From NCBI GenBank assembly GCA_021776435.1, contig JAJFFW010000059.1:1-32849 (forward strand): a stretch of 32,849 nt of DNA, read 5' to 3'. Under the pieces are notes generated by a model. The model was given only the letters and a program-made list of their open reading frames with translations. It was not told the origin of the DNA and did no database searches. Both the position numbers and the translations under genes were made by a program. The stretch comes from Parvularculaceae bacterium. Lineage in GTDB: Bacteria > Pseudomonadota > Alphaproteobacteria > Caulobacterales > Parvularculaceae. Below, piece after piece: positions 8,629-12,417 of this stretch (positions are counted from its first letter, which is position 1; each line of letters starts with the position of its first letter).

Positions 8629-9600
8629 TTATTTCGCGATGCGCAGTCGCGCCACTTCGCGCGATCGCTGGCGCTTTAGATCATGGCGAGTCGTTCGCTT
8701 AACAAGAATGTACAAAATAAAATAACACATGGCGGCGCCGATCGCGGCCAGCCACATAGGCAGATGTTCAAATAGCACTGCAAAGCGATCGTAGCTCAAG
8801 CCTAACGCCTGTGCGAGACCGGGTAACTCCTGGCCGATCAGCAATACAGCGCCAAGGCCCGTCAGCAAAAACGCCAACAAGCCAGCGAGAATCGCCCCGA
8901 TCGTGACCCCCATATCCGCATGTTCTTCTGCTTTGGAAATAATCATCTTCGTCTGATCGCCAGAGAGCGCCTGAGTCGCAGCAAAAAGCGCACGTGCGCG
9001 CGCAGCCGTTTCTTCCGGTGACAATTGGTTTGTGTCTTCACGGCGCAATGCCTCAAAATCGACAACAGGCATCGCCTTTAATTCCGCGTCGGAAACATAA
9101 TCCAGTTCGCACTCAGGGGCCGGTTGCACATCCGCTGTGGGCACCACCAAAGACGCATCTGTCGGCATAAGAAATAATGACTTCTCAGCTGCGCGGCGAC
9201 GCACCAGCCCGTCCAGCATTACGAGTTCATTGTTGACGCGCGCCTTCGTCCACATTTCAAAAGCCTGAGCCGCAGACAACTTGTCGCCTTCGTTGAGCTT
9301 GCGCAATACAGAGGAACGCCGCCAGTTCTCTTCGCCGATATTGTAAACCAAAGAAACGAGTGCATCATTCTCATTCTGATTAAGAGGCGCGCGAACTGTA
9401 TCAGCAATCAATTGCTCAATCGGTGCGATATCATCTTTAAGAAGACGCTCAGCATCACCTTCGGTGACGCTCATTCCATGGCGAGCCGTTGAGGTATGAC
9501 CGTAGCCGACAGTCCACTGCTCACTGGGCGCATAATGGGCCGACATACGCAGCCCCTCATAGCCCTTGATCAGATTAAGACCTGTCTCTCCCGTTTTCAT
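8629..9600 (-). CDS. GH24 lysozyme-like protein with C-terminal membrane segments
   Basis: 323 residues. The N-terminal domain (about 1-145) is a phage-type GH24 lysozyme fold: LIKGYEGLR with the catalytic Glu15, WTVGYGHTS with Thr30, then NQNENDALVSLVYNIGE and RRRAAEKSLFL. The second catalytic position, Asp or Cys nine residues after the Glu, is Ala24 here. A linker rich in acidic residues follows, then two hydrophobic helices at about 230-256 and 281-300, and a basic tail. There is no N-terminal signal or anchor, so the lysozyme domain may face the cytoplasm unless exported by holin-like action. No phage genes surround it. Peptidoglycan hydrolase is the family activity, but it may be inactive or regulatory here. 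Confidence 0.8.
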   Translation of the reverse strand: MKTGETGLNLIKGYEGLRMSAHYAPSEQWTVGYGHTSTARHGMSVTEGDAERLLKDDIAPIEQLIADTVRAPLNQNENDALVSLVYNIGEENWRRSSVLRKLNEGDKLSAAQAFEMWTKARVNNELVMLDGLVRRRAAEKSLFLMPTDASLVVPTADVQPAPECELDYVSDAELKAMPVVDFEALRREDTNQLSPEETAARARALFAATQALSGDQTKMIISKAEEHADMGVTIGAILAGLLAFLLTGLGAVLLIGQELPGLAQALGLSYDRFAVLFEHLPMWLAAIGAAMCYFILYILVKRTTRHDLKRQRSREVARLRIAK

Positions 9601-10129: not shown

Positions 10130-10348
10130 ATGTTAGGCAATGGAATGGCAAATATTGTCGCCGCAATCATCATCGCCGCAGCGCTTCTATGGAGTGGGGG
10201 CTTCGGTCAATCCCGCACATCGGATGTAACGGAAGATGAGTTTGCGCGGTTTTACGCACGGGCGGTGGGTGACATCCGCAATGACATCGTAGTGAATTGT
10301 GGGTGTTGCGGTGACGGGTCCGGGGGGGCCAAAAAAGGTTCTTTTTAG
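10130..10348 (+). CDS. N-terminal piece of a probable frameshifted PEP-CTERM protein
   Basis: About 72 residues. A hydrophobic N-terminal segment (ANIVAAIIIAAALLWSGGFG) looks like a signal peptide or anchor. A polar region follows, with an unusual CGCC motif and a Gly-rich end that stops just after seven G and six A bases in a row. AGGGTG lies six bases before the ATG; a GTG three codons further upstream is an alternative start. The next frame opens at 10315, before this one ends, and encodes a PEP-CTERM tail. The simplest reading is that the two were one secreted protein of roughly 190 residues, now broken by a one-base change in a homopolymer. As a stand-alone gene it is unrecognised. Confidence 0.5.
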   Translation: MLGNGMANIVAAIIIAAALLWSGGFGQSRTSDVTEDEFARFYARAVGDIRNDIVVNCGCCGDGSGGAKKGSF

Positions 10349-10503
10349 GAGCCCGCCCCGTTCCGACCCGGATCGCCGGTTATAAACCCGGCCTTCCGAC
10401 CGAAACGCGGCGGGCGCCAGAACTCCTCACCAAAGAGGCTCTTGTCGTTCCGGAACCACCGGTTGTTACAGACGAGCGCGTATTTCCTCCGGCGCGACCA
10501 ATC

Positions 10504-10692
10504 GTGCTGCCGGGACCGTTTTTCCTGGGACCACCGCCAATACTCGTCGTTCCGCCGACGGAGGAGCCGCCTATCGATGTGCCGGAGCCAGCCACATTGT
10601 TCATACTTCTTCTTGGCCTCACGATGCTTTATTTCGGCCAGACCGCAATTTTCAGACGTCGCCAAGGATATGACGGAAAAATGAGCGGCTAA
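10504..10692 (+). CDS. C-terminal piece carrying a PEP-CTERM sorting signal
   Basis: The last 35 residues read DVPEPATLFILLLGLTMLYFG followed by an RRR-containing tail. That is the full PEP-CTERM signal: the PEP motif, a hydrophobic helix and a basic end recognised by exosortase. The segment before it is strongly Pro-rich (PPPILVVPPTEEPP). The listed start is a GTG without a ribosome binding site, and the same frame is open back to 10315 with coding-like Pro-rich sequence and no start codon. The piece therefore lacks its own signal peptide and most likely belongs to the preceding frame, joined across the G7/A6 tract. Exosortase is not encoded in this window. Confidence 0.6.
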   Translation: MLPGPFFLGPPPILVVPPTEEPPIDVPEPATLFILLLGLTMLYFGQTAIFRRRQGYDGKMSG

Positions 10693-10775: not shown

Positions 10776-12233
10776 CTACATCAGCACCAGGGCGGCCAGA
10801 CCGAGAAAAACGAAAAACCCCACGACATCCGTAACAGTTGTGACGAAGACCGCCGAAGAGACAGCGGGATCCGCTCCAGCACGCTGCAAGCTTATCGGGA
10901 TGAGAATGCCAGCAATGCCGCCAGCTAATAAATTAATAATCATGGCGACACCGACAACCAGGCCTAATTGCAATGCAGCAGATCCATTCTGAGCCCCGGT
11001 CGTCCAATAATACCAGACGCCTGATAAGACTCCGAGCATGAGCGCGAATAAAACGCCGTTCACACCGCCAACCAGTGTTTCTCGCCAGATAATTCTCGCC
11101 GCATTCGACGGCGTCAGATCTTTTGTTGCGAGCGAACGTACTGCCACAGTGAGCGTTTGCGTACCCGCATTTCCACCCATCGACGCAACGATAGGCATCA
11201 AAACAGCGAGCGCGACGATCTGCTCAATGGCGCCGCCAAACAGCGCAATCACCAGAGAAGCGAGAATCGCCGTCGCCAGATTGACCGCGAGCCACGAAAA
11301 CCGCGAACGGACGGTCTCCAACACAGAGTCAGACAGGCCTGTATCCGCTTCAACCCCTGCCAACGCCAGCATATCTTCATGAGTTTCTTCGTGAACAATT
11401 TCAACAACGTCATCAACCGTGATCATGCCGACGAGTCGCTGCGCATCGTCGACCACAGGGGCTGAAATCAGGTTATATTGCTCAAATAAATAAGCGACTT
11501 CTTCCTGATCCAGGCCGACCGGTATGCGCTTAACGTTCTGATCCGTCATAATGTCTTTAATGACGGTATCGCGTTTCGACCTCAGAATTGTTGAAAGAGG
11601 TACGACCCCGACGGGCTTAAAGGACGGGTCGACTACAAAAACTTCATAAAACCGATCCGGGAGTTCATCGGCGCCTCTGAGGCGATCGATAATTTGTCCA
11701 ATGGTCCAGTAAGCGGGGGCGGCAAAAACCTCCCGTTGCATCAAACGACCCGCGCTATCCTCTCCGTACTCAAGCGCAGCGCGAACCGCCATGCGTTCCG
11801 TAACGGGAACTTCGGCGAGAATCTCGGCGCGTTTCTTTTCGTCGAGATCCTCAAGGATAAAAGTGGCGTCGTCTGTTTCGAGTTCCGTAACCGCTTCCGC
11901 GACCTTGTGGGGCGCCATCGCGCCAACAACATCTTCGAGCAGATCGTGCTCAAGCTCCGCCAGCACGTCCGGATCAAGTCCGCCGTCGAGCAATTCAATC
12001 AGCCGCGACCGATCGTCATCGCTCAGCAAACCAAGAAGATCAGCCATATCCGCCGGATGAAGGCCTTCACAAAGCTTGGCCGCCGCCGCTGCTTCTCCGC
12101 CCTCAATGGAGCCGGACACAGCTCGCACAAAAGCTGTTGTCAGCGTCTGATCTTTGGCGAACTGATTTTCGACCTCCGGAAGCGTACCTTCGGAAGGAGG
12201 AATACTCTCATCGATGGAAGTCGGCTCGTTCAT
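10776..12233 (-). CDS. mgtE: MgtE family magnesium transporter
   Basis: Inner-membrane Mg2+ channel of about 485 residues, typical family length. An N-terminal helical superhelix domain (FVRAVSGSIEGG ... LHPADMADLLGLL) is followed by two CBS domains (IMTDQNVKRIP, YNLISAPVVDDAQRLVGMITVDDVVEIV) and five membrane helices with the conserved pore segment MGGNAGTQTLTVAVR. The N and CBS domains normally close the pore when cytosolic Mg2+ is high. ATG is chosen as start; a TTG two codons upstream is equally possible, and neither has a strong ribosome binding site. It is the last gene of the minus-strand block, 184 bases after DUF1467, where alphaproteobacteria often have proS (inference from memory). 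Confidence 0.95.
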   Translation of the reverse strand: MNEPTSIDESIPPSEGTLPEVENQFAKDQTLTTAFVRAVSGSIEGGEAAAAAKLCEGLHPADMADLLGLLSDDDRSRLIELLDGGLDPDVLAELEHDLLEDVVGAMAPHKVAEAVTELETDDATFILEDLDEKKRAEILAEVPVTERMAVRAALEYGEDSAGRLMQREVFAAPAYWTIGQIIDRLRGADELPDRFYEVFVVDPSFKPVGVVPLSTILRSKRDTVIKDIMTDQNVKRIPVGLDQEEVAYLFEQYNLISAPVVDDAQRLVGMITVDDVVEIVHEETHEDMLALAGVEADTGLSDSVLETVRSRFSWLAVNLATAILASLVIALFGGAIEQIVALAVLMPIVASMGGNAGTQTLTVAVRSLATKDLTPSNAARIIWRETLVGGVNGVLFALMLGVLSGVWYYWTTGAQNGSAALQLGLVVGVAMIINLLAGGIAGILIPISLQRAGADPAVSSAVFVTTVTDVVGFFVFLGLAALVLM

Positions 12234-12417
12234 CGACAAACACTCGCCCAGTGGAAAGTTTCGGGGGAAGTTCGAACTCAGTAGCTAGGGCAAGCTGCAT
12301 CCCATAGGCAAGATCCAAAGGTGAGTCGCCATATATTTTTCACGATTTCTTTCCGCATTCGATACGTTCGCATGGCGTCGCCGCGTCCCGGACCTGTTTT
12401 TCCCGTTATAGCTGGAA

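Follow-up and report, generated by a model that had tools for sequence, protein, structure and literature searches.

How can two overlapping reading frames yield one protein when the second of them has no start codon where it begins? This question is raised by a locus of a Parvularculaceae bacterium, which we analysed within a stretch of 32,849 nucleotides, here called the window. The initial annotation had described two real frames, the second of them startless, Pro-rich and ending in a PEP-CTERM tail, and this description holds: the open stretch of the -1 frame spans 10315-10692, and its first ATG, GTG or TTG is the GTG at 10504. The same annotation had placed the break at a G7/A6 homopolymer, which is not where the frame change lies. 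Both runs (G7 at 10322-10328, the sole run of at least seven G or C across the window, and A6 at 10331-10336) are in register inside ORF1, no indel being needed, and the frame must change only past them, at TCT TTT TAG (10340-10348), where five T run into the stop codon. Of the four explanations offered at the time (sequencing error, recent mutation, phase variation and ribosomal frameshifting), the last is the one that our comparison supports. We propose that the locus is very probably one gene in two frames, joined by programmed -1 ribosomal frameshifting at a 'shifty stop', and the break looks like a built-in switch, not a damaged gene. The features are collected in Table 1.

Table 1. Features of the split gene and its neighbours, with positions in the window; functional roles are those proposed here.
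Feature	Position	Strand	Remarks
Lysozyme (phage-type) domain protein, divergent neighbour	8629..9600	-	Pfam
ORF1	10130..10348	+	72 aa + TAG (ATG at 10130, TAG at 10346-10348); hydrophobic segment (transmembrane helix) near the N-terminus, conserved ARAVGDIRNDIVVNCGCCG block, ends ...GSF*
G7, putative internal Shine-Dalgarno-like stimulator	10322..10328	+	13 nt upstream of the slip tract
Candidate slip site T TTT TAG	10342..10348	+	TTTYTRR in 38/38 loci
ORF2 (-1 frame)	10342..10692	+	FLGARPVPTRIAGY..., Pro-rich spacer, PEP-CTERM; stop 10690-10692
ORF1 stop codon TAG, part of the proposed shift site	10346..10348	+	stop at the same place in 38/38
Putative downstream stimulatory RNA, long interrupted hairpin	10351..10415	+	RNAalifold, folding, synonymous-codon control
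PEP-CTERM sorting signal (DVPEPATLFILLLG...RRR)	10579..10659	+	TIGR02595
MgtE magnesium transporter, convergent neighbour	10776..12239	-	Pfam

An Rfam scan of the window gave no match, and a promoter and terminator scan found nothing. ORF1 of the window belongs to no family in NCBIfam or Pfam; a search of the same two collections with 16 ORF1 members returned one weak, unrelated match, and a profile search of the PDB with ORF1 returned one weak match of no use. AlphaFold2, given ORF1 with 36 sequences, produced a weak model with two helices (residues 5-21 and 35-55) and a mean pLDDT of 67.

Comparison with relatives, as the initial annotation had proposed, showed that the split arrangement is present in all 38 distinct Parvularculaceae loci. 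These are the window, 36 loci from a profile scan of genome contigs and the locus L016; one of the 38 (L041) was missed by the motif search and added by eye. The 36 scanned loci come from Parvularculaceae, Marinicaulis, Parvularcula, Amphiplicatus or unspecified Alphaproteobacteria. Many of the 38 are from metagenome assemblies, and the split is found as well in the isolates Amphiplicatus metriothermophilus (L033) and Marinicaulis flavus (L047) and in a 3.47-Mb single-contig genome (G029). When 61 genomes were searched at the DNA level, 17 had matches, all of them from the window's own family. With a profile search, the gene was found in 38 of 62 genomes of the family, with three further weak matches in genus g5. 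The ORF1 profile matched 40 of 398 genomes sampled from the order, every one of them Parvularculaceae, and its sole match among 385 genomes sampled from the class was the window's own genome. ORF1 is uninterrupted up to the slip site in 37 of the 38 loci, and ORF2 is complete in 37, being cut by a contig end in L052. No fused in-frame homologue was found, which would have shown the fusion to be the required product, and there is no in-frame variant among the 38 loci; ORF2 without ORF1 was seen only as a contig-edge fragment in genome G027.

Single loci depart from this pattern in ways of their own. In L032 (genome G062, a metagenome assembly), ORF1 carries a further in-frame TAA 24 nt upstream of the slip site; both its slip site and its ORF2 are unaffected, and the extra stop may reflect damage to this copy or an assembly error. 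The CGCCG block that is conserved elsewhere is partly deleted in L041 (6001-6204), which keeps the slip site and the PEP-CTERM signal, and the ORF2 spacer of L035 (6252-6761) is lengthened by tandem repeats of the PPPEGPPPDG type.

That both frames are coding is indicated by their substitution patterns. Pairs with an identity of 80-99.5% give dN/dS values of 0.14 in ORF1 (32 pairs) and 0.24 in ORF2 read in the -1 frame (16 pairs), compared with 1.6-2.7 in the wrong frames; by these ratios, both frames are under purifying selection. ORF2 has no conserved start codon, a TTG overlapping the ORF1 stop solely in the ten loci with TGA, and the family does not consist of separate genes that each have their own start.

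The frame change is confined to a short and strictly kept site. The stop codon at the end of ORF1 is TAG in 22 loci, TGA in 10 and TAA in 6, and TAG is thus commoner than among 208 long ORFs of the same loci (29%; binomial p 2e-4, relatedness ignored), so that stop identity perhaps matters for shifting. The last residue of ORF1 is Phe in 38 of 38 loci against 3 of the 208 long ORFs, which is far beyond chance. This Phe is encoded by TTT in 37 loci and by TTC in one, with about 45% TTT in neighbouring genes. A run of five T is found in 37 of the 38 loci, the window reading TTTTTAG, and the nine-nucleotide slip sequences are TCTTTTTAG in 13 loci, TCTTTTTGA in 10, CCTTTTTAG in 6 and TCTTTTTAA in 6, with GGTTTTTAG, GCTTTTTAG and CCTTTCTAG in one locus each. 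In the window, the Phe-tRNA would move from TTT at 10343-10345 to TTT at 10342-10344, and the next codon would be TTA (Leu) at 10345-10347. In L013 (TTTCTAG), the Phe-tRNA can still re-pair on UUU, giving F-L. After the slip, the -1 frame reads F-L-x-x-R-P in 37 loci and has R-S in place of R-P in one. Going upstream from the shifted Phe, a stop in the -1 frame comes after a single open codon in L034, L038 and L057 and after two in L010 and L051; in these five loci the frame change has to fall at the last codons or the stop.

A canonical X_XXY_YYZ heptamer is absent from most loci: the window has U_UCU_UUU, and C_CCU_UUU is found in only 6 of the 38 loci. What is conserved is a U_UUY tetramer followed by a stop, as in the tetramer motifs described in excerpts of PMC4066793, which rank U_UU.Y with the shiftiest tetramers of E. 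coli, at a low level of shifting. The strict adjacency of Phe and stop in 38 of 38 loci favours a role for the stop.

Upstream of the site, the ribosome would meet an element that can pair with the anti-Shine-Dalgarno sequence. The G7 of the window forms such a duplex with an energy of -9.9 kcal/mol at a gap of 13 nt. In 27 of the 38 loci, there are 13 nt between the T run and the end of the octamer that binds the anti-SD most strongly; in 32 this gap is 9-14 nt, and in six (L006, L008, L011, L012, L032 and L040) the octamer is weak or lies elsewhere. In 22 loci the element is CGGAGGGCC, read in frame as CGG AGG GCC, and it is G7 in the window and L056 only. AGG is a rare codon, with 4.5% of Arg codons in neighbouring genes; counted over the final 18 codons of ORF1, 31 of 68 Arg codons are AGG. 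The mean anti-SD energy is -8.7, as compared with -3.4 ± 0.34 in 60 synonymous shuffles drawn from each locus's own codon usage; 28 loci fall below the 5% level of their own shuffles and 10 do not. According to PMC5009743, stimulatory SD elements stand 9-14 nt from the slip site for -1 shifts and 3 nt for +1 shifts. The gap found here is within the published -1 range, so that the spacing also points to the direction of the shift. G7 itself is more plausibly a Shine-Dalgarno-like stimulator that stands at a conserved position.

Downstream of the stop, RNAalifold on the 38 sequences predicts a helix that starts 3 nt past the stop and pairs CCCGCC with GGCGGG (10352-10357 with 10409-10414 in the window, the outer helix conserved in the family); it is extended by GUUC with GAA-C and encloses an inner hairpin. 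Across the alignment, 97.4% of the 532 cells of the helix are paired, with two-sided changes at 4 of 14 pairs, in 5 cells. Pairing is best at slide 0 and falls to 62% or 48% when one partner is slid by one base. With the helix columns shuffled, 96.7% of the cells still pair, and the covariation term of RNAalifold is -0.48; covariation is modest because most helix columns hardly vary. The evidence from codon shuffling is stronger. A 75-nt stretch has a mean minimum free energy of -41.6, and of -30.4 ± 0.84 once its codons are shuffled synonymously; in 29 of the 38 loci at most 10 of 200 synonymous shuffles are as stable as the native stretch. The mean fold z is -2.2, compared with -1.0 for a control stretch in ORF2 (37 loci), itself somewhat more stable than its shuffles, and -0.4 for a second control (38 loci); single-sequence folds of 10 of the 38 loci give z from -1.5 to -6.9, with -4.69 in the window. 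The helix arms show no variation in codon choice for Arg (CGG in 38/38) or Val (GTT in 33/33), and codon identity is raised in general, at 0.55 against 0.42 expected in ORF1 and 0.61 against 0.39 in ORF2. In ORF1, the Asn codon of NCGCCG is AAT in 36 of 38 loci, although the two Asn codons have about the same share in nearby genes; this may be a further constraint at the RNA level.

We argue that these elements could act as follows. A ribosome would first translate the 72 codons of ORF1. The internal GGAGGG or G7 would pair with 16S rRNA and the hairpin 3 nt past the stop would stand ahead, and both would strain and slow the ribosome at the point where the A site holds the stop codon and Phe-UUU occupies, or is moving into, the P site. 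From there, the Phe-tRNA would slip one base back on the U run, and the A site would become UUA, UUG or CUA, all read as Leu. Ribosomes that slipped would continue into the Pro-rich PEP-CTERM frame, and those that did not would terminate, giving a short peptide with the membrane segment and the CGCCG block and a long form with the exosortase sorting signal. That the shift occurs in cells, and at what efficiency, we infer from sequence; the slip may take place either once the tRNA is in the P site and the A site holds the stop, or at an earlier step. As to what the two products do, our guess is that a fixed ratio of unsorted to surface-sorted form is produced.

The U run that would let the tRNA slip could instead let RNA polymerase slip, inserting one U on T5 so that the long protein is made from an edited fraction of the transcripts. 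Such an insertion would restore the right frame, and T5 is there in 37 of 38 loci; we nevertheless consider this quite unlikely, because L013 has TTTCT, because the anti-SD element and its spacing have no transcriptional role, and because the phase of the Phe and stop codons is kept in all 38 loci. Five T are also short for transcriptional slippage. Termination at the ORF1 stop followed by reinitiation at or near it, with ORF2 translated separately, would likewise make use of the SD-like element ahead of the stop and, in the ten TGA loci, of the overlapping TTG. This, too, is very unlikely: in the other 28 loci the overlapping codon is TTA or CTA, ORF2 lacks a conserved start, and a separate product would be without the N-terminal membrane segment needed by an exosortase substrate. 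The spacing from the element to the TTG is, in addition, long for initiation. The presence of both homopolymers in the window suggested phase variation through slipped-strand mutation at either of them, an explanation that has hardly any chance of being right when, among the 38 loci, G7 recurs only in L056 and an A6 upstream of the slip only in L008 (each run thus in 2/38), the more frequent element stands in place of G7 in 22, TTTYTRR is kept throughout and no in-frame variant is seen. Sequencing error, gene decay or a recent mutation, for which the many metagenome assemblies and the extra stop of L032 might speak, is practically excluded by the same split in all 38 loci, isolates and the single-contig genome among them, with both frames under purifying selection.

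If ribosomal frameshifting joins the two frames, as we propose, the protein so made would carry the marks of an exosortase substrate. The tail of the window scores 18.4 bits against TIGR02595 in a genome search (cut-off 16) and 17.1 bits in a second search, and 17.5 bits against PF07589, below the 20.7 of Pfam. In a profile of 35 of the 38 ORF2s (leaving out L052, which is truncated, L035, which has long repeats, and L016), TIGR02595 matches 26 and PF07589 27 members at E<=1. All 37 complete ORF2s have an EP motif and a hydrophobic stretch of eight or more residues and, close to their end, a basic residue. A hydrophobic N-terminal helix is found in 38 of 38 loci, and in none of them does Lys or Arg precede it, which is unusual for a Sec signal peptide. 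The 'signal peptide' of the initial annotation is a hydrophobic helix that lacks a basic start, and 'normal exosortase substrate' is slightly too strong for such a protein.

The annotation had also suggested looking for exosortase genes, and the window's genome has one (PF09721 match), which TIGR03109 assigns to XrtA and which has a domain of the EpsI type. A tree was built from 100 of the stronger domain matches of the family, its root placed by us; in it, the exosortase clade of the window (support 0.95) is represented in 34 of the 38 genomes with the gene and in 2 of the 24 without it (Fisher p 1e-10, relatedness ignored). The two are G027, with the ORF2 fragment at a contig edge, and G082, which is 76% complete. 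In G063 the gene is absent and the one exosortase lies outside the clade; its matches to the lysozyme-domain gene and mgtE are about 445 bp apart (L097). Two genomes of genus g5, G004 and G012, have no member of the clade in the tree, which does not include the single, partial exosortase match of a third, G018. In two of the three g5 loci, the place between mgtE and the lysozyme-domain gene is taken by an ORF of 380 aa (L088) or 361 aa (L089) whose N-terminus is related to ORF1 and which, by reading, shows neither a frame change nor a PEP-CTERM signal. It is possible that these ORFs are an orthologue that left the exosortase pathway. Judging by the co-occurrence with the clade, by G063 and by the g5 pattern, the recoded arrangement seems to accompany the exosortase.

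We do not claim an exosortase with a single substrate: the window's genome (G000) has one TIGR02595 match and relatives have more, for example 11 in G074, 6 in G029, 4 in G015 and 2 in G001 among 7 genomes. On contig C132 of G000 (L111, 7917-11358), the exosortase gene is followed by a gene for an asparagine-synthase-type amidotransferase, with a glycosyltransferase nearby; the gene ahead of it is, by eye, acetyl-CoA synthetase-like. At the split gene itself, the lysozyme-domain gene adjoins in 38 of 38 loci, and the slip site and mgtE are no more than 1.2 kb apart in 27 loci and 3.0-4.6 kb apart in 4; mgtE was not seen in 7, three of which have short flanks. The g5 relatives of the lysozyme-domain protein have, by eye, hydrophobic stretches near the C-terminus.

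The E. coli dnaX frameshift signal includes a 3' stem-loop. Our locus has, in the same order as dnaX, an internal SD at -1 spacing, a slip site and a predicted downstream stem-loop. Two products that share their N-terminus would be made here, as for dnaX in excerpts of PMC5009743. Unlike dnaX, our locus lacks an A_AAA_AAG heptamer, has its stop directly behind the slip codon and would yield the longer product by shifting; in the same excerpts, a few dnaX genes have a stop immediately past the shift site. The +1 shift of prfB at CUU UGA resembles ours in having a shifty stop, an internal SD and a U-rich P-site codon beside the stop. The term 'shifty stop' reportedly appears in the title of Weiss et al. 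1987, and PMC5009743 uses it as well. Here the shift would be -1 and not +1, with an SD gap of 13 nt in most loci as against 3 in prfB (same source), and all three stops occur, unlike in prfB, so that no single release factor is an obvious sensor. As in XrtA PEP-CTERM substrates, the C-terminus has the EP motif, a hydrophobic stretch and basic residues, and the genome an exosortase; unlike in other PEP-CTERM substrates, the sorting signal would be reached only after a frame change.

The alphavirus 6K/TF shift raises a more speculative thought, namely that sorting is gated by translocation, the pull on the nascent chain, as its own N-terminal helix enters the membrane, driving the frameshift. 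The transmembrane segment lies 45-57 residues ahead of the slip codon in 37 of 38 loci (of the 38, 45-50 in 26 and more than 50 in 12), near the roughly 45 active codons reported in excerpts of PMC12776465, and the tail would then join only chains engaged by the translocon. We regard this as unlikely. In the same excerpts, no product was seen at 35 or 55 codons, and indels flanking the conserved block do not compensate the distance from helix to slip (r 0.02 without L014), which counts against gating. Unlike 6K/TF, this is a bacterial gene with a putative SD stimulator and a slip at the stop, and coupling to the translocon is putative here. If true, gating would be a bacterial shifty-stop counterpart of the membrane-coupled alphavirus shift.

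Mobile elements aside, few chromosomal genes of bacteria have a conserved programmed frameshift. A handful is named in the section list of PMC5009743. We found no published case of frameshifting with PEP-CTERM or an exosortase in a search of largely open-access literature, and the main text of the GeneTack survey (PMC3711429) does not mention exosortase, PEP-CTERM or Parvularcula. The locus would combine a shift at a stop, with all three stops in use, and both classic stimulators, and the shift would decide whether a protein receives its surface-sorting signal. The 38 natural variants across the family could serve for measuring -1 frameshifting at shifty stops. Because no start codon belongs to the sorting tail itself, annotation will probably overlook such genes or label them broken. 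Our findings suggest that exosortase substrates can be dosed by recoding.
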